This document shows positions 2,103 to 44,130 of a stretch of DNA of 64,000 nt, piece by piece. The position numbers and the translations under genes are program-made. This DNA is from Aurantimonas marina (GTDB taxonomy: Bacteria > Pseudomonadota > Alphaproteobacteria > Rhizobiales > Rhizobiaceae), in contig NZ_JADDXW010000005.1 in NCBI RefSeq assembly GCF_017183135.1, forward strand, positions 62,001 through 126,000, read 5' to 3'. Numbering within the stretch: position 1 is the stretch's first letter; every line of letters begins with the position of its first letter. Under the pieces are notes generated by a model. The model did no database searches. It was not told the DNA's origin and saw only the letters and a program-made list of their open reading frames with translations.

Positions 2103-3107
2103 TCAGGATTCCTGGATGGCGGAAAGTTTCCATTCGCCGCCATCCTGGCGCACGAAGGTCCACAATTCCGTCGTCTCCGTGGCATGGTCCGGATCGCCCT
2201 CTACCACCTCTCCGGTGGTCCGGTCGCGCATCACGTCGATCGACGAGTAGCGCATCGCAAGGCTCGCATAATCGCGTTCCCCCTCGCGCCAGGCTTCGGC
2301 GATATCGCCCTGTTCGAGCTTGACGTCGAGAACATCGTTCTTGCGGCCCGACGTGGCGTTCTCCGACAGTTCCTCGGCGAGATAGGACATGACCTCCGGC
2401 GTGGTGATCGCCCGCAGCGCTGCGTAATCCTCGCGCGAGAACGCCGCCTGCACCTCGTGAAGCTTCTGCTCGAAGGTGTCGAGGTCGGCGTTGGTGATGC
2501 CGATCTCGTCGGACGGTTCGCTCGCTGCGGTTGCCGCTCCCGTCGCGGCGCTGCCGCCCAGACCGGCACCCGAGCCGATCGAGGGGATGCGGAAGCTGCC
2601 ATTGCCGGCCGGCTGCGCCGGCTCCTCATAGGCGCGGCGCGCGGCCGGATCGGCGCCATTCGCGCGGGCCGGGCTCGGATTGCGGCCCCGGAACAGCCGC
2701 ATCAGCAACGACGCTCCGACTACGATCAGCAGGATCTGCATGATCATCGCCAGAATGCCGCCCATGCCGCCGAAGCCGCTTCCCATCAGCATGCCGAACA
2801 GGCCGCCGAGCATCAAGCCGCCGAGAAGACCACCGCCCAAGCCGCCGAACAGCCCGGGACGACGGGCGGCGATGCCGTTCTGAGCAGCGCCCGCGCCCGG
2901 CTGCGCGGCCTGGCCTGGGGTCATAGAGCGCTGGACCGGCGCAAAGGATTTGGGTGCCGTGGTTGTGGTCGGCGCCGACTGGAAGGTGCGGAAGCCCCGG
3001 CTGCCGAAGCTGCCCCCGCGACGGGCGTCGGCGTAGTCGACAGCGACGAACGAGAAAGCGAGGAAGAGGCTTGCGAACACTGCACCGAAGCGAAGGCGAT
3101 TGACCAT
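2103..3107 (-). CDS. Tim44-like domain membrane protein
   Basis: 334 residues from the ATG at 3107; a TTG at 3122 is a weaker alternative. The N-terminus is a hydrophobic signal or anchor ending near DYADA. A basic/Gly/Ser stretch follows, then a Gly- and Met-rich transmembrane region (about 115-175, GGLGGGLLGGLMLGGLFG and ILAMIMQILLIVVGASLL), then a soluble Tim44-like domain over the last 140 residues. Alphaproteobacteria often carry such proteins, thought to act as membrane-tethered adaptors; the exact role here is unknown. It ends at the shared bidirectional terminator. Confidence 0.75.
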   Translation of the reverse strand: MVNRLRFGAVFASLFLAFSFVAVDYADARRGGSFGSRGFRTFQSAPTTTTAPKSFAPVQRSMTPGQAAQPGAGAAQNGIAARRPGLFGGLGGGLLGGLMLGGLFGMLMGSGFGGMGGILAMIMQILLIVVGASLLMRLFRGRNPSPARANGADPAARRAYEEPAQPAGNGSFRIPSIGSGAGLGGSAATGAATAASEPSDEIGITNADLDTFEQKLHEVQAAFSREDYAALRAITTPEVMSYLAEELSENATSGRKNDVLDVKLEQGDIAEAWREGERDYASLAMRYSSIDVMRDRTTGEVVEGDPDHATETTELWTFVRQDGGEWKLSAIQES

Positions 3108-3191
3108 GTGATGTTCCGTCAAATTGGCGTCCGGCGCAATATGGGAGGCCGAAGCCCCTGTCGCCAGCGGTCCGCGCCGAATTCTTGAGCC

Positions 3192-4382
3192 TCAGCGCGC
3201 CAATTCACGTGTCGCGTCCTCGATACCCTTCAAAGTCATCTCAAACATCCGATCGCCAGTCGCCTCGCGGATCAACTGGATCGATTGCGTCCAGTCCCAG
3301 TGTTCGCGCTTGACCGGGTTCAGCCAGACGGTCTTCGGCCATTTGGCGGTAAAGCGTTCCAGCCAGACGAAGCCTGGCTCGGCATTCCAGTGCTCGACCG
3401 ACCCACCCGGCATGGCGATCTCATAGGGGCTCATCGAGGCGTCGCCGACGAACACCGCCTTGTAGTCCGATCCGAAAGTGTGGAGCACGTCCATGGTGGA
3501 GATCGTCTCGGCATGGCGGCGACGATTGTCCTTCCACAACCGCTCATACGGGCAATTGTGGAAGTAGAAGAATTCGAGGTGCTTCAGCTCCGAGCGGGCG
3601 GCGGAAAACAGCTCCTCGACCGCCCGGACATGGTCGTCCATCGACCCGCCGATATCGAGAAACAGGAGTACCTTGACGGCGTTGCGCCGCTCCGGCCGGG
3701 TCTTGACGTCGAGATAGCCGTGCTCGGCGGTGGAGCGGATCGTGGCGGGAAGGTCGAATTCCTCCTCGGCCCCGTCCCTAACCCAGCGGCGCAGCCGCTT
3801 CAGCGCGACCTTGATGTTGCGGGTGCCGAGCTCGATGCCGTCGTCGAGATTGCGGAACTCGCGCCGGTCCCAGACCTTCACCGCCTTGCGGTGGCGGCTC
3901 TCCTTCTGGCCGATACGGACGCCTTCCGGGTTGTAGCCATAGGCGCCGAACGGCGAGGTTCCGCCGGTGCCGATCCATTTCGAGCCGCCCTGGTGGCGCC
4001 CTTGCTGCTCTTCGAGGCGTTCTTTGAGCGTCTCCATAAGCTTCTCGAAGCCGCCGAGGGATTCGACCAGCTTCTTCTCGTCTTCCGTGAGGTGCTTCTC
4101 GGCGAGCCGGCGCAGCCATTCCTCGGGCAGTTCGCGCATATCTACGCCGCCGCCGGCCTCGCCGGATACCGCTTCCACGCCCTTGAAGTTTTCGGCGAAG
4201 ACCCGGTCGAACCGGTCGACGAAGCGCTCGTCCTTCACCAGGCTGGCGCGCGCCAGATAGTAGAAGCCCTCGACGTCGTAGGTGACGAGATCGGCCGCCA
4301 CCGCGTCGAGAAAGGCCAGGTGCTCGCGCAGCGTGACCGGGACACCGGCGGCCTTGAGCTTGAGGAAGAACGTCAGGAACAT
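3192..4382 (-). CDS. CoxE-type VWA domain protein
   Basis: 396 residues starting MFLTFFLKLKAAGVPVTLRE, the usual N-terminus of CoxE-like VWA proteins. The VWA domain occupies the C-terminal half; its metal-site motif reads DIGGSMD, the CoxE-family form rather than canonical DxSxS. Proteins of this family work with a MoxR AAA+ ATPase to insert metals or remodel protein complexes. The matching MoxR gene lies 3 kb away at 7381-8229 on the same strand, with five unrelated genes between them. The frame stays open upstream to 4649, but that extension is not family-like. Confidence 0.8.
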   Translation of the reverse strand: MFLTFFLKLKAAGVPVTLREHLAFLDAVAADLVTYDVEGFYYLARASLVKDERFVDRFDRVFAENFKGVEAVSGEAGGGVDMRELPEEWLRRLAEKHLTEDEKKLVESLGGFEKLMETLKERLEEQQGRHQGGSKWIGTGGTSPFGAYGYNPEGVRIGQKESRHRKAVKVWDRREFRNLDDGIELGTRNIKVALKRLRRWVRDGAEEEFDLPATIRSTAEHGYLDVKTRPERRNAVKVLLFLDIGGSMDDHVRAVEELFSAARSELKHLEFFYFHNCPYERLWKDNRRRHAETISTMDVLHTFGSDYKAVFVGDASMSPYEIAMPGGSVEHWNAEPGFVWLERFTAKWPKTVWLNPVKREHWDWTQSIQLIREATGDRMFEMTLKGIEDATRELAR

Positions 4383-37885: not shown

Positions 37886-38749
37886 ATGGCAGTCGAAACA
37901 TCACCCACGGTGACGCTTCTCCGGACGGAATTCGAGACGGTTCTCGCCAGATGGCTGAAGGCCCAGGCGCGGGAAGGCGTCAAGCGAACCGATCTTGTTT
38001 CCGCAAGGGAAACCGAGCGGCAAAGCCGTGACCTCCTAACGGCTCTTGCCGCGGCGATGGAAAACGCGGCAGTCGACGACGGTTTCGATCTCGCCAAGCC
38101 GGCGTGGGATTCGGTCCGCCAAACACTGGAGGAGATCACCGAAAGCCGCACGCAGCGCGGCGTTTCCGCAGGGGAAATGGGCTGGTTCATCGCCTCGATC
38201 AAACAGCCTGTGTTCGATCTGTTGCGACCGATTCTCGCCGACACTCCCCAAGCGTTCACAGAAGAGATTTGGAATACGACGCGGGTCATCGATCAGATCG
38301 TCCTTCAGGCCGTCGAGTATCTCGTTCAAAAGCGCGAGGCGGTGATCGAGCGCCAGCAGGCAGAGATGACCGAAGTGTCGGCGCCGGTCGTCAAGATCTG
38401 GGATCGGATCGTGACGGTCCCGCTTATCGGGACGCTCGACTCGTTCCGCGCGCAGGCAGTGATGGAGAATTTGCTCGACTCGATCGTGCAGTGGGAGGCG
38501 GAAGTCGCCATCATCGATATCACCGGTGTTTCGACAGTGGACACGCTGGTGGCCCAGCACCTGTTGAAGACAGCAGCTGCGGTGCGTCTTATGGGGGCCG
38601 AGTGCGTCATCTGCGGTATCAGCCCGAAGATCGCCCAGACGATCGTCAATCTCGGCGTGGAACTGCCCAACATCATCACGCGCGTCGATTTGCAGAGCGG
38701 TCTCGCCTATGCTTTCGAGCGCATCGGTGTTTCCGCGAAGGAGAGATAA
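37886..38749 (+). CDS. rsbR: RsbR-like stressosome scaffold/sensor protein
   Basis: 287 residues. N-terminal helical sensor domain (about 8-155, non-haem, no obvious ligand motif), then a STAS domain at about 168-285. The STAS core VAIIDITGVSTVDTLVAQHLL and ISPKIAQTIVNLGVELPNI is close to RsbRA of Bacillus; T213 and T252 fall at the positions of its two phosphorylated threonines. RsbR with RsbS builds the stressosome that holds RsbT until stress. First gene of a five-gene operon; the next starts 3 bases later. Confidence 0.85.
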   Translation: MAVETSPTVTLLRTEFETVLARWLKAQAREGVKRTDLVSARETERQSRDLLTALAAAMENAAVDDGFDLAKPAWDSVRQTLEEITESRTQRGVSAGEMGWFIASIKQPVFDLLRPILADTPQAFTEEIWNTTRVIDQIVLQAVEYLVQKREAVIERQQAEMTEVSAPVVKIWDRIVTVPLIGTLDSFRAQAVMENLLDSIVQWEAEVAIIDITGVSTVDTLVAQHLLKTAAAVRLMGAECVICGISPKIAQTIVNLGVELPNIITRVDLQSGLAYAFERIGVSAKER

Positions 38750-38752
38750 GGG

Positions 38753-39115
38753 GTGGAATCGTCCTTCGGCATCACCCCCATTGTCACGATCACCGGATGC
38801 GTGGTTGTCGCGATCCGAGACGATCTCGATGACCAAGGGGTCGTGACTCTTCAGGATCAACTCGTCGAGGAAGTGGCGCGTCGCAAGGCCCGCGGTGTCG
38901 TCATCGACATCTCCAGTCTTGAAATCGTCGATACTTTCGCTGGACGAATGCTGGGGGCAATGGCCCAGATGGCGCGTATGATGAATGCGCGCACGATCGT
39001 TGTCGGTATGCGTCCGGCCGTGGCGATGACGCTCGTCGAGCTCGGCATGACGCTGGAAGGCGTCGAGACGGCACTGAATGCGGACAGGGCGGTCAACCTG
39101 ATCCTCAACTCATAG
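38753..39115 (+). CDS. rsbS: RsbS-like STAS protein
   Basis: 120 residues, single STAS domain, GTG start. GVVIDISSLEIVDTFAGRML and VVGMRPAVAMTLVELGMTLE match RsbS almost position by position. The RsbS phospho-serine (in IDSF of Bacillus) is replaced by threonine T61 in VDTF, so phosphorylation by an RsbT-like kinase is still possible. RsbS is the core of the stressosome and the RsbT antagonist. Third-base spacing of only 3 to rsbR and 4 to rsbT indicates tight co-expression. Confidence 0.85.
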   Translation: MESSFGITPIVTITGCVVVAIRDDLDDQGVVTLQDQLVEEVARRKARGVVIDISSLEIVDTFAGRMLGAMAQMARMMNARTIVVGMRPAVAMTLVELGMTLEGVETALNADRAVNLILNS

Positions 39116-39119
39116 AGCA

Positions 39120-39536
39120 TTGGGCCGATCCTTGAGCGAGGAAGTTGTGACCGTCAGGCTCGCCCGAGCTACCGATGTGGCTTTCGCGCGCCAAGCCGCT
39201 ATGAAGGCGATGACGTCTCTTGGCGCCAGCGCGATCAAGCGGACGAAATTCGTCACGGCCGTGTCGGAGATTGCCCGCAATGCGATCGTCTATGGCGGCG
39301 GCGGAGTAATTTCATTTGTTATCGTCGGGAACGGCTCGTTCCGCAAGGTCGTTGCTACATGCTCGGACCGAGGCCCGGGCATCGACGATATCAAGCAGGC
39401 TCTCATTGACGGTTTTACGACTGGAAACGGGCTTGGTCTCGGGCTGAGCGGCGCACGTCGCCTGGTCGACCGGCTCGATGTCGAATCGTCCCGCGAAAGC
39501 GGAACAACCGTCATATTGGAGTCCGCCGCCCGATGA
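39120..39536 (+). CDS. rsbT: RsbT-like serine/threonine kinase
   Basis: 138 residues from TTG 39120, a GHKL ATPase of the anti-sigma kinase type. N-box VSEIARNAIVYGGGG, G1-box CSDRGPGIDDI, G2-box GNGLGLGLSGARRLVD. RsbT phosphorylates RsbR and RsbS and, when released, activates a downstream partner (RsbU in Bacillus); no RsbU-type phosphatase with an RsbT-binding domain is encoded here. GTG 39147 has AGGAAG just upstream and would align better with RsbT. Its stop overlaps the next gene by 4 bp. Confidence 0.85.
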   Translation: MGRSLSEEVVTVRLARATDVAFARQAAMKAMTSLGASAIKRTKFVTAVSEIARNAIVYGGGGVISFVIVGNGSFRKVVATCSDRGPGIDDIKQALIDGFTTGNGLGLGLSGARRLVDRLDVESSRESGTTVILESAAR

Positions 39537-40534
39537 TCTCGCTACCAGTCACGGAAATCAGCCAGGTCGGCGCGGCGCGCAGAAGAGCCCTGCATGAAGC
39601 CGAGGGACTTGACCTGCCGACCGAGGCCCGCGAACGGCTGGCATTGGTGGTGACCGAAGCTGGAACAAACCTGGTCCGCCACGCTCGCGGAGGGGAGATT
39701 CTCCTGATTCTCCGTGGCAGGGGTCAATCGGCGGGGATCGATATCATCGCACTTGATGAGGGCCCCGGGCTTGCCAATGTCGAGGCCGCGATGACCGACG
39801 GCTACAGCACGGCGGCGGCGGGCGAACGGGGAATAGGGGGCGGATTGGGAGCGATCTCGCGCCTGTCGGAGTCGTTCGACATCTATACGGATGCCAGAGG
39901 AACGAGCGTCGTGGTTACGATCGGGAAGCTGCACCAGGATTCGGATGGGCCCATGGAGTCCGCCGGCCTGATCGTGCCCAAACCGAATTTCGATCAGGGC
40001 GGGGACGCATTTTGTTTGCGTCACGAAGCCGACAGAACGTTGATCATGCTGATGGATGTGCTCGGCCATGGCCCAGCCGCCGCAAGCGAGGCCGACAAGG
40101 CGATCGCCGCGTTTGCGCAAACGGCAGGAGCCTCATTGGAAGAGACCGAGCAGGAAGTTTCCACGGCTTTGCGGGGAGGGCGCGGGGCTGCGGCGCTGTT
40201 CGTCGAATTGCCGCATGCCGCTGGCAGATTACGGGCGATGGGACTCGGCAATGTGCGTGGGGAAATTGCCGCTATCGAAGGCCCCAGGTTCGGAATCCCC
40301 TCGATGCCGGGGATCGTGGGCGCCGCCGCCAAGCCACCGCGAGTAACGGAACACGATTGGTCGAGCCAAGCGGTGTTGTTGCTTTCCACCGACGGTCTAC
40401 GCGGCGGCGACCGCGCGCCAGAACCGCCATCGCTGTTCTTTCGAGACCCGATGACGATCGCAGCATCCATTTACAAGCGCCGGCGGCGAGGAACCGACGA
40501 TTGCGGCGTCGTCGTCGCGCGAGCCAGAACGTGA
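39533..40534 (+). CDS. Fused GHKL ATPase and RsbX-like PP2C phosphatase
   Basis: 333 residues, two domains. Residues 1-135 are a GHKL anti-sigma-type ATPase: N-box VVTEAGTNLVRHARGG (E42, N46), G1 DEGPGL (75-80), G2 GIGGGLGAI. Residues 150-330 are a PP2C/SpoIIE-type phosphatase: MDVLGHGPAAAS (D175, H179), LLSTDGL (D287), TDDCGV (D322-D323). In Bacillus RsbX is a single-domain PP2C that resets RsbR and RsbS. Here it carries its own kinase-like domain. ATG overlaps the rsbT stop; its own stop overlaps the following GTG. Confidence 0.85.
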   Translation: MISLPVTEISQVGAARRRALHEAEGLDLPTEARERLALVVTEAGTNLVRHARGGEILLILRGRGQSAGIDIIALDEGPGLANVEAAMTDGYSTAAAGERGIGGGLGAISRLSESFDIYTDARGTSVVVTIGKLHQDSDGPMESAGLIVPKPNFDQGGDAFCLRHEADRTLIMLMDVLGHGPAAASEADKAIAAFAQTAGASLEETEQEVSTALRGGRGAAALFVELPHAAGRLRAMGLGNVRGEIAAIEGPRFGIPSMPGIVGAAAKPPRVTEHDWSSQAVLLLSTDGLRGGDRAPEPPSLFFRDPMTIAASIYKRRRRGTDDCGVVVARART

Positions 40535-41643
40535 AAGCGGTCGTCACCTCGATACGCGTTGAGCGCGACGGGGACGTCACCCACACGCGTCGTACCGCGC
40601 GCATTGCGGCTCAAGTCGCCGGTGCCGCCACGCGCGATCAGATTCGCTTTGCGACGGCGGTGTCCGAAATCGCCCGGAACGCACTGCAATATGCGGGCGG
40701 CGGGGTCGCCGAGTTCTCCTTCGACCGCCTGGAAAAGCGAACCCGCTTGATGGCTCGGGTGCAGGACAAGGGGGCCGGAATCGAAGCCGTCGAGACAATG
40801 CTTCGCGCACGTCACCAGTCGCATACCGGTTTGGGGCTCGGGCTGAGCGGATCGCAGAAGTTGGTCGATCATTTCGACCTGAAGACCGGTTCGGGCGGAA
40901 CGCTGGTAACGCTGGGCCTTCATCTGAATGGCAACCGCGGTGCCGACGAACTCGCGAAGGCGGCCGCCGGCGCCCTCATCAACGCGGCGCAGGGCTCTCC
41001 GATCGAGGAACTCGCCGAGCAGAACCGCGCTTTGCGCGATTCCTTGGCCGAACAGCAATTCCTGCTGCGCGAAATCCACCACAGGACCAAGAACAATCTG
41101 GCGATCATCCAGTCGCTGGCGCTGATGCAGGCGCGGCAGGCCAAATCGGAGGAGACGCAGGAAGCGCTCGGGATTTTGACCAACCGCATCCAGGCCTTTG
41201 CCAACGCCCACAATTTCTTGCATCAGGCTGAGGACGTGACGCAGGTGGATCTGCGTCAGCATTTGGAGAGCCTCACCGACAGGCTCGCCTCGGCCTTCGG
41301 CTCCGCCGGCTTAACGATTGCCTGCCACGCGGAGGCGATTTCCATTGGGTTCGAGGCAGCGACCGAGATCGCGCTGGTGGTCAATGAACTGGTGACCAAC
41401 GCCGCGAAATACGGCGGCGACAACGGCCATGTGGACATCGCGGCGTATCAGCAAGGGCCCAATTTTTGTCTTCGCGTCGGCGACGATGGGCCGGGAATGG
41501 ATAATCCGGAGACGGTTCTTCGTAATTCCAAGTCGCTTGGCTGGCGGATCGTGGAAGGCTGCGCCCGCAAACTGAACGGCAGCCTCGACGTCGAGGGGAC
41601 GAACGGGCTGTCGGTCCTGCTGACCATTCCCAACGACCGGTAA
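40531..41643 (+). CDS. RsbT-like domain fused to HisKA_2 histidine kinase
   Basis: 370 residues. Residues 1-132 are an RsbT-like GHKL domain (FATAVSEIARNALQYAGGG, DKGAGIEAVE, TGLGLGLSGSQKLVDHF) clearly similar to the rsbT product two genes upstream. A coiled linker follows (about 157-178). Then a HisKA_2 dimerisation domain with phospho-His in LREIHHRTKNNLAIIQSLAL (H183/H184) and a second catalytic domain: N-box LVVNELVTNAAKYGG, G-box VGDDGPGMDN, GWRIVEG. There is no membrane segment and no receiver domain. GTG 40531 overlaps the previous stop by 4 bp. HisKA_2/HWE kinases drive the PhyR general stress response in alphaproteobacteria; this link is inference. Confidence 0.85.
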   Translation: MKAVVTSIRVERDGDVTHTRRTARIAAQVAGAATRDQIRFATAVSEIARNALQYAGGGVAEFSFDRLEKRTRLMARVQDKGAGIEAVETMLRARHQSHTGLGLGLSGSQKLVDHFDLKTGSGGTLVTLGLHLNGNRGADELAKAAAGALINAAQGSPIEELAEQNRALRDSLAEQQFLLREIHHRTKNNLAIIQSLALMQARQAKSEETQEALGILTNRIQAFANAHNFLHQAEDVTQVDLRQHLESLTDRLASAFGSAGLTIACHAEAISIGFEAATEIALVVNELVTNAAKYGGDNGHVDIAAYQQGPNFCLRVGDDGPGMDNPETVLRNSKSLGWRIVEGCARKLNGSLDVEGTNGLSVLLTIPNDR

Positions 41644-43246: not shown

Positions 43247-43753
43247 ATGAACGCGGATCAAGATACCATGAGAACGATCACCAACGGTCTTCCAAGCAAG
43301 GCCGCGAAGATCCGCGCGCTGGACGAGCGAGGTTTCCAGCGGGCCGATATCGCCCGCTTCCTCGGTATCCGCTATCAGCACGTCCGCAACACCCTCGAGA
43401 GACCGCGTGCGGAAAGCCCGAAGATGGCAACTCCGGATCGGAACGCGTTCACGATGCATCCGGAGGCGGACGCCTTCACGCGTGTGTCGGTCGACGCGGA
43501 AGGCCGGATCGTGATCCCCGAGACATTCCGGCGCCTTATGAAGCTCGGCGAGGGCGGTAAGCTCATCGTCAGGGTCGACGAGGATGGAGAGTTGCGGCTG
43601 ACCTCACCCATGGCGGCGATCGATAAGGTTCGAAGAATGATCGCCGAGAACAGCTTTGGCGGCGGGTCGCCCGTCGATGAGTTGATCGCGGAAAGGCGCG
43701 CGGAGGCTCTGCGGGACGAGGCCGAGACGCTTCAGCATCTGCCCAAATCGTGA
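43247..43753 (+). CDS. AbrB/MazE-type antitoxin with N-terminal HTH
   Basis: 168 residues. Residues 12-55 form a helix-turn-helix (SKAAKIRALDERGFQRADIA, then FLGIRYQHVRNTL). Residues 75-115 are a SpoVT-AbrB swapped-hairpin domain (TRVSVDAEGRIVIPETFRRL). The C-terminal 50 residues (MAAIDKVRRMIAEN...) are likely the toxin-binding arm. It should neutralise the PIN toxin encoded next and repress from the palindrome at 43196. Stop overlaps the toxin GTG by 4 bp. The double DNA-binding layout is typical of AbrB antitoxins in Hyphomicrobiales. Confidence 0.85.
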   Translation: MNADQDTMRTITNGLPSKAAKIRALDERGFQRADIARFLGIRYQHVRNTLERPRAESPKMATPDRNAFTMHPEADAFTRVSVDAEGRIVIPETFRRLMKLGEGGKLIVRVDEDGELRLTSPMAAIDKVRRMIAENSFGGGSPVDELIAERRAEALRDEAETLQHLPKS

Positions 43754-44130
43754 CGGTCGTTCTCGATAGCTCGGCCGTCCTGGCCTATCTGTGGAGTGAG
43801 CCGGACAGCGACAGGATTGGCGAATTTATCCGGGAAGGAATGATATCGAGCGTCAATGTCGTGGAAGTGTTGTCCAAGCTGATCGACCATGGGATGGCCG
43901 GAGAGGCGGCGAACTTGATGTTTGCAGGCCTGAATCTCTCCGCGATCGCCTTCGATGCAGATCAGGCACGGCTGGCCGGCGATCTTCGATCACCCACCCG
44001 CAGATATGGCCTATCGCTCGGTGATCGGGCTTGTCTGGCTTTGGCGATACGGGAAAAGGCACAAGTCATAACCGCCGATAGAATATGGGCCGAGCTTGAC
44101 CTTGGCATCGAAATCGAGGTCATCCGATAA
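43750..44130 (+). CDS. PIN-domain toxin (VapC-like ribonuclease)
   Basis: 126 residues, PIN fold with the four acidic catalytic residues visible: D6 in VLDSSAVLAYL, E39 in NVVEVLSKL, D92 in SLGDRACLALA and D110 in ITADRIW. It is a Mg-dependent RNase expected to cleave tRNA or rRNA when free of antitoxin. GTG start at 43750 overlaps the antitoxin stop (GTGA). The module lies between two leucine-degradation genes, ivd and mccB. Confidence 0.9.
   Translation: MTVVLDSSAVLAYLWSEPDSDRIGEFIREGMISSVNVVEVLSKLIDHGMAGEAANLMFAGLNLSAIAFDADQARLAGDLRSPTRRYGLSLGDRACLALAIREKAQVITADRIWAELDLGIEIEVIR

Follow-up and report, generated by a model that had tools for sequence, protein, structure and literature searches.

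In a 64,000-nucleotide stretch of the Aurantimonas marina genome (contig NZ_JADDXW010000005.1, positions 62,001 to 126,000; called the window), five genes located head to tail on the forward strand (37886-41643) encode RsbR, RsbS, RsbT, an ATPase-phosphatase fusion (TX) and a protein (T'-HK) that joins an RsbT-like domain (T') to a HisKA_2 histidine kinase. We interpret this operon as a minimal stressosome that brings along a feedback phosphatase and whose output kinase would be tethered by a built-in RsbT, and we assign a probability of about 50% to this interpretation. Neighbouring genes are separated by 3-4 bases or, at two junctions, overlap by 4 bases. Open reading frame coordinates and Pfam searches bore out the five genes, their spacing and their identities as proposed in an initial annotation of this DNA. 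The annotation had also stated that a switch-like domain and a kinase share one polypeptide and that RsbU, RsbV, RsbW and a sigma factor are lacking. The former statement is supported, and the latter holds beside the operon: Pfam detected neither RsbV nor RsbW nor sigma-B among the five operon proteins and eight neighbouring proteins (the rest of the genome was not searched for them), and RsbU_N yielded zero matches across the whole assembly (4.03 Mb, 66 contigs; a B. subtilis control was detected) and none on T'-HK in Pfam.

By every feature tested at the sequence level, the operon contains an RsbRST(X) stressosome module. RsbR and RsbS matched chains of solved stressosomes (6qcm, 7b0u, 6jhk) with best E-values of 2e-32 (RsbR with RsbR of 6qcm) and 1.1e-25 (RsbS with RsbS of 6jhk). 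In Pfam, we obtained E-values of 1.3e-18 (RsbRD_N) and 2.6e-16 (STAS) for RsbR, 8.3e-11 (STAS) for RsbS, 4e-12 (HATPase_c) for RsbT, and 1.3e-10 (HATPase_c_2) and 3.9e-7 (SpoIIE) for TX. When aligned to the solved chains, S186 and T220 of RsbR corresponded to T175 and T209 of the Listeria protein, and T61 of RsbS to S56. The phospho-sites of Bacillus and Listeria RsbR and RsbS and their roles are described in the accessible parts of PMC6614362 and PMC3944199. Across the 16 aligned RsbR sequences, which include that of the window, both sites were invariant, and the RsbS position was Thr or Ser in 16 of 16 (window again included). Among solved sequences, RsbT of the operon (T1) matched SpoIIAB chains (E 4.4e-8), and the ATP-site residues E, N and D were present in 29/29 T1 rows. 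For TX, a 15-row alignment indicated that E42, N46 and D75 of the ATPase domain and D158, D175, D287, D322 and D323 of the phosphatase domain are invariant (15/15). We take these TX and RsbT residues to be catalytic, and the TX aspartates presumably constitute the metal site. RsbR and RsbS would be expected to assemble into a megadalton complex.

Pfam resolved T'-HK into two ATPase stretches and a HisKA_2 domain at residues 181-254 (E 4.2e-20). The initial annotation had named a frameshift error at 40531, which would split the fusion into two genes, as a possible refutation, and had proposed looking for the RsbT-HisKA_2 architecture elsewhere. Our search of a species collection retrieved 16 loci, and 14 named genomes (six Aurantimonas, Mangrovicella, Lutibaculum, two Notoacmeibacter, Consotaella, Flavimaribacter, two Pararhizobium) carried the fusion in full or near full length; the remaining two loci matched the kinase half only (28% identity). 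Because the fusion is encoded in one frame in all 14 genomes, with identities of 51-94%, a sequencing or assembly frameshift that joined two genes is excluded. Among 60 genomes close to that of the window, seven (its own included) carried the full-length fusion, and six of the 14 named genomes are also among these seven. RsbRD_N scored above the cut-off in these seven genomes and in one other (G039), in which the weak match is an RsbRD_N-HisKA kinase. Within the genus the fusion is patchy (5/8 genomes). The gene order RsbR-RsbS-RsbT-TX-T'-HK was found in 20 of 21 distinct operons, and the 21st (L047) is cut by a contig end; of the 29 loci surveyed for gene order, the others are repeats, apart from L123, which lacks the genes.

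L123, which belongs to another genome of the order (G039:C23, 1191-2423, minus strand), encodes an RsbRD_N-like domain joined directly to a HisKA histidine kinase. In the scan of this locus, the domain scored 22.9 bits, slightly below the cut-off of 24.3.

To place T' among related ATPases, we calculated a tree of 79 GHKL domains (134 columns), which comprised 24 T', 29 T1 and 26 N-terminal ATPase domains of TX (TX-N). B. subtilis RsbT was not part of the tree, and the T1 rows owe the name RsbT to their position and profile. All 24 T' domains fell on one side of a branch with a support of 97/94, and a second branch (97/89) placed the 26 TX-N opposite T1 and T'; the 29 T1 are the remaining domains and do not necessarily form one clade. 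Four residues followed the same division: T42 (T1 29/29, T' 24/24, TX-N 1/26), S45 (29/29, 21/24, 2/26), R49 (29/29, 24/24, 0/26) and G107 (28/29, 24/24, 1/26). By tree and residues, T' groups with RsbT and not with the X-linked ATPase. The ATP site of T' is kept (E46 in 24/24, N50 in 22/24, D79 in 24/24), and T' alone gave no significant match to solved sequences (best E 0.021). The fused domains of L127 and L120 were labelled T' as heads of fused kinases, though plain RsbT scored slightly higher, and a stand-alone protein of L135 was labelled TX-N, again with a slightly higher RsbT score. L061 and L065 are copies of L117 and L118, and L120_3905 is an unfused HWE kinase. L130 was labelled HisKA_2-type with its kinase half cut off and was omitted from the test of kinase classes. 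In the tree, T' domains of HisKA kinases were interspersed with those of HisKA_2 kinases, and a single HisKA-type clade was not rejected (p-value of the approximately unbiased test 0.163). The T' clade and its mixed kinase classes support that T' arose once and that its kinase class changed one or more times.

Downstream of T', a Q-N-R/Q motif was present in 27 of 30 T' proteins, many of which are close relatives, and the other three had K-N-R, Q-N-K or Q-T-R. The profile match usually ends 33-38 residues before the motif; in L127 this distance is 17 and in Streptomyces 71. Among unfused HisKA_2 kinases, none of 41 had the motif within the 70 residues surrounding the linker, and it was likewise found in none of nine kinases without T' from or beside T' operons (first 340 residues). 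Hydrophobic residues near the motif follow a spacing of 3-4, with an Asn at a core position. An AlphaFold model of T'-HK, which was based on 15 sequences (predicted local distance difference test, pLDDT, 79.8), gave T' a GHKL-kind secondary structure with pLDDT values of 85-93 over residues 1-130 except for 81-110 (53-76). It predicted a helix at 138-154, a break and a single long helix (157-203) entering the kinase. In Foldseek, the EL346 kinase came out on top and Brucella LOV-HK at rank 10, with alignments covering mainly residues 190-370.

Another linker motif (E-T-N-x-G-V-x-A-L-Y-A/S-E-L) stands ahead of both HisKA-type kinases and the phosphatase of a Streptomyces locus (L140). It was seen in L131, L115, L116, L127, L129, L130, L140, L141 and L142 and not in L139. 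Variants start with D-T-N (L116, L142) or with S-T-N (L131, where T' is missing).

Which enzymes are placed behind the phosphatase (X) in other stressosome loci was surveyed with an RsbS profile made from 16 T' loci, and the outcome is hence biased towards T' loci. From the class, 372 genomes were drawn, 14 of which contained a stressosome locus, and T' was present in eight of these 14 (7/13 when the window's own is excluded). The gene following X encoded T'-HisKA_2 in five genomes (G000, G425, G676, G659, G534) and T'-HisKA-REC in two (G603, G391); in one (G508), T' is truncated by the contig end. The six loci without T' carried HisKA-REC (G512), GGDEF-EAL (G514), RsbU_N-HisKA (G575), RsbU_N-HisKA-REC (G683), HisKA (G152) or, close to X, a PAS-HisKA-REC-Hpt hybrid whose N-terminus faintly resembles RsbT (29.8 bits; G426). 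T'-HisKA-REC was also found in two genomes outside this draw (G231, G147). A long ATPase-PP2C X was encoded in all eight T' loci and in G512 and G514, and X of the other four comprised 194-212 residues without a match to the ATPase domain. These data bear on the main rival of a cis-acting RsbT, namely that freed T1 switches the kinase on by pairing with T' or with the linker, just as RsbT pairs with RsbU_N in Bacillus, T' never being located on the core. T1 is a separate gene in 20/20 complete loci, it is separate from T' in the tree, T' occupies the place of RsbU_N-HisKA kinases in two loci of the class (L133, L134), and RsbT acts on the linker coil of RsbU according to the accessible part of PMC12143880. 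However, T' has an RsbT-type residue and, in most rows, the ATP site, features that would be superfluous if T' served for docking only, and the short X of the two RsbU_N loci as compared with the long ATPase-PP2C of the eight T' loci hints at a different wiring. On balance we regard activation in trans as unlikely.

Plasmid records extended the spread of the operon beyond these genomes. The best matches to the fusion were located in Phaeobacter inhibens and Salipiger, where it is annotated merely as ATP-binding protein; in P. inhibens 2.10, the five genes are on a plasmid and the last three carry only this annotation. Profiles of T', T1 and TX-N (24, 29 and 26 earlier domains) were applied to six annotated plasmid loci that had not been used for the profiles. 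The Phaeobacter, Salipiger and Deinococcus loci had been found via the fusion, and those of Paraburkholderia, Streptomyces and Sphingomonas were chosen among 30 listed of 98 RsbS-bearing records. In 6/6 loci each profile scored highest at the expected gene position, and T' was again borne by the last of five genes (weakly in Streptomyces). The outputs were HisKA_2 (Phaeobacter, Salipiger), HisKA-REC (Paraburkholderia, Sphingomonas), HisKA (Deinococcus) and a SpoIIE PP2C phosphatase (Streptomyces). The Paraburkholderia annotation splits RsbR into two pieces that overlap.

The comparisons thus describe T' as a conserved branch of RsbT-like domains that, as judged from its relatives in several phyla, has a conserved linker, stands in the last of five genes and carries an exchangeable output half. 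GHKL domains are common, and the N-terminus of T'-HK might be a generic one on a kinase that is co-transcribed with the stressosome genes but functionally separate from them. The last-of-five position in several phyla, the RsbT-like clade, the shared linker and the co-occurrence in 7/7 fusion-bearing relatives make this very improbable. Retention of E46, N50 and D79 (in 24, 22 and 24 of 24 T') would also be expected if T' were a second serine/threonine kinase for the core, by which the kinase network is read into the stressosome as feedback or cross-talk. However, the output half swaps kinase class or is replaced by a phosphatase while T' and linker stay, which is the pattern of an input domain, and the architecture persists in Streptomyces, where ATP-site motifs of T' are largely lost. 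We therefore rate this second alternative as rather improbable. A broader proposal, which we advance tentatively and at somewhat less than even odds, is that T' and the Q-N-R linker form a general exchangeable output adaptor of a stressosome class (R-S-T-ATPase/PP2C-T'effector) in Pseudomonadota, Deinococcota and Actinomycetota. With an RsbT in cis on its coiled coil, the adaptor would replace the RsbT-RsbU_N pair and couple one sensing complex to effectors of different kinds, namely PP2C phosphatases, phosphorelays of the HisKA-REC type and, for the general stress response, HisKA_2 kinases.

On the Streptomyces microflavus plasmid (L140, 8053-9429), X is followed by a gene whose product joins a degenerate RsbT-like domain to a SpoIIE phosphatase and is possibly an RsbU equivalent with built-in RsbT. 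A gene annotated as SigF is located 1.8 kb downstream on the opposite strand.

For the window operon, we propose that RsbR, which carries the RsbRD_N sensor, and RsbS would build the STAS core. RsbT (T1) would be the switch kinase that phosphorylates RsbR and RsbS under stress, and TX would strip these phosphates off. In resting cells, T' would compete for or share the RsbT sites on the core, which would leave the kinase inactive. Phosphorylation of the core would free T', freed T' domains would let the coiled-coil linker zip up, and the HisKA_2 dimer would autophosphorylate at H184. A receiver in the HRXXN network would then take over the phosphate; PhyR is the most likely one, reached directly or through a single-domain regulator. 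The accessible part of PMC12143880 describes RsbT as bound by the core and as an activator of RsbU that orders a coiled-coil linker. In T'-HK, a conserved RsbT relative is followed by a coiled linker, likewise conserved, and by an effector that is exchangeable, and the simplest reading of this arrangement is an RsbT that acts in cis.

The proposal of the initial annotation that the operon might feed PhyR, and with it the general stress response, stood in part. The HisKA_2 domain of T'-HK scored 72.1 bits (cut-off 22.3) and includes an HRTKN box, and HRXXN was found in 21/21 T'-HisKA_2 proteins. The best NCBIfam match of the window kinase was PhyK (HisKinPhyk; kinase half only, 108.9 bits vs. 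a cut-off of 750), and PhyK was also the best match, far below the cut-off, for 3/3 other T'-HisKA_2 proteins tested. PhyR, NepR and EcfG are clustered with an HWE kinase in the genome (PhyR and EcfG were named by sight of their sequences). NepR was detected in 17/19 T'-bearing genomes, five times weakly (E 3e-7 to 2e-5), and since the PhyR pathway is common in the class, this co-occurrence has little power. As far as the accessible parts of the sources go, HRXXN kinases control PhyR (PMC4814048) and HisKA2/HWE kinases phosphorylate MrrA/SdrG (PMC5964349). On the other side, no EcfG-type promoter was found at the window operon, and T' of other loci carries HisKA kinases or a phosphatase, which limits the link. 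Weighing both sides, there is about an even chance that PhyR is the target of T'-HK, directly or by relay; transfer of the phosphate to PhyR is plausible.

Receiver genes were found near some related operons, among them a hybrid kinase and a single REC gene in L116. On the Salipiger plasmid, a single-domain response regulator gene (L138, 2451-2819) with the orientation of rsbR lies about 0.5 kb upstream of it and is a candidate phosphate acceptor for the fused kinase. In L127, a REC-HisKA_2 kinase gene (3084-4133, minus strand) adjoins the gene of a T'-HisKA-REC-REC kinase, so that the HisKA_2 class recurs in this operon though T' carries another kinase class. The FATGUY motif of single-domain regulators was found in none of the 30 receiver loci (of 37) that were read, and this search had no positive control.

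Several observations weigh against a stressosome with a kinase tethered by T'. T1 and T' are apart in the tree, and with this separation binding of T' to RsbS/RsbR may be lost. T' of L127 is without parts of the ATP site, and the degenerate T' of Streptomyces, which scored just 41 bits, has largely lost the ATP-site motifs. The 18 HisKA_2 halves formed one side of a branch with a support of just 60/73. The structural model is modest, with a predicted template modelling score of 0.45 and pLDDT values of 58-63 over residues 151-180. The fusion is rare in the order (4/297 genomes at E <= 1e-40), and the co-occurrence in seven of 60 genomes comes from related genomes. No response regulator is encoded in the window operon. 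The EcfG-type sequence GAAC-N16,17-C/GGTT was absent from up to 400 bases upstream of rsbR in the window, and it was present in only 2/22 loci (L042, L117; about 0.3 expected at the window background rate), several of the 22 being near copies.

Control of the window operon by sigma-EcfG is not supported, since an EcfG-type promoter upstream of rsbR is lacking. The PhyR/NepR region contained one match to the same sequence. Among the 22 loci, GGAAC-N15-18-CGTT was found upstream of rsbR in none and GGAA(C/T)-N15-18-(C/G)GTT in two (L031, L032).

The coordinates of the operon are summarized in Table 1. Pfam assigned the four genes preceding it on the other strand to branched-chain amino-acid transport and the first gene after it to an acyl-CoA dehydrogenase. 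Further downstream (43247-44130, plus strand), genes for a MazE-type antitoxin (2e-7) and a PIN-domain protein (1.7e-12) overlap by 4 bases and resemble a VapBC pair.

Table 1. Features of the stressosome-type operon (positions refer to the window)
Feature	Position	Strand	Description
RsbR	37886..38749	+	RsbRD_N sensor domain (residues 11-114) and STAS domain (167-259), from Pfam and solved chains
RsbR putative phospho-sites	S186, T220		from alignment with solved stressosome chains
RsbS	38753..39115	+	single STAS domain; 3-base gap after RsbR; T61 at the position of Listeria RsbS S56
RsbT (T1)	39120..39536	+	stand-alone GHKL switch kinase; TTG start; 4-base gap after RsbS
TX	39533..40534	+	GHKL ATPase domain (residues ~1-135) and SpoIIE/PP2C phosphatase, RsbX-like; 4-base overlap with RsbT
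T'-HK	40531..41643	+	RsbT-like domain, linker and HisKA_2 histidine kinase; 370 amino acids; GTG start; 4-base overlap with TX
T' domain	40531..40932	+	residues 1-134; RsbT-like GHKL; ATP-site E46, N50, D79; RsbT-type R49
T'-HK linker	40933..41076	+	residues 135-182; conserved P-x-x-E-L-x-x-Q-N-R motif at 157-166
T'-HK kinase half	41071..41634	+	HisKA_2 residues 181-254, HRTKN box with H184; catalytic ATPase ~262-368

The covalent fusion of an RsbT-like domain to a kinase points to the contact by which a stressosome without sigma-B may signal onwards, and it makes this question testable. The recurrence of the fused design with other output enzymes in distant bacteria suggests a signal route without the Bacillus output chain. 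If our interpretation is true, a cytosolic, complex-based sensor would be located upstream of the alphaproteobacterial HRXXN network and would link two general-stress systems, and T' with its linker would be a modular adaptor. Phaeobacter inhibens 2.10 is a tractable host for such studies. Among the papers listed by our literature searches, none deals with an RsbT-kinase fusion, but an earlier mention is possible, for instance in the stressosome reviews of 2005 and 2017 (Pane-Farre et al.).

HRXXN kinases usually receive their input from PAS, LOV or membrane sensors, and T'-HK differs from them by using an RsbT-like domain. It shares with the HRXXN (HisKA_2/HWE) kinases that feed PhyR or MrrA/SdrG, as far as these are covered in the accessible parts of PMC4814048 and PMC5964349, the HRXXN box (HRTKN), the HisKA_2 domain, the best match to PhyK and, as closest folds, the EL346 and Brucella LOV-HK kinases. 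With the sigma-B stressosome of Bacillus and Listeria (PMC6614362, PMC3944199, accessible parts), the operon has in common the STAS core, the positions of the phospho-sites, RsbT and an RsbX-type phosphatase; unlike there, RsbU_N is not matched in the assembly, RsbV, RsbW and SigB are not found beside the operon, and the sensor is RsbRD_N. The only paper listed for a stressosome or RsbT together with a histidine kinase is PMC9237108, whose accessible part describes outputs that carry RsbU_N or on which none was detected. The minimal rsbRSTX loci of Vibrio vulnificus and other Gram-negative bacteria described there resemble the window operon in that R, S, T and an RsbX-type PP2C form an operon without the sigma-B cascade and are followed by signalling genes including HisKA/REC proteins. 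In contrast, the Vibrio-type loci have a globin-sensor RsbR and a single-domain RsbX, whereas X of the window carries an ATPase domain and its output carries the RsbT-like domain itself. In the same source, an interaction of Vibrio RsbT with the two-component protein encoded just downstream was not demonstrated. RsbU_N-histidine kinases (accessible part of PMC12143880; L133, L134) are like T'-HK in being kinase outputs of a stressosome with a helical linker between adaptor and kinase, but their adaptor is RsbU_N bound by RsbT in trans, whereas that of T'-HK is an RsbT relative in cis. Taken together, the operon is a stressosome of a known kind that differs by its output adaptor.

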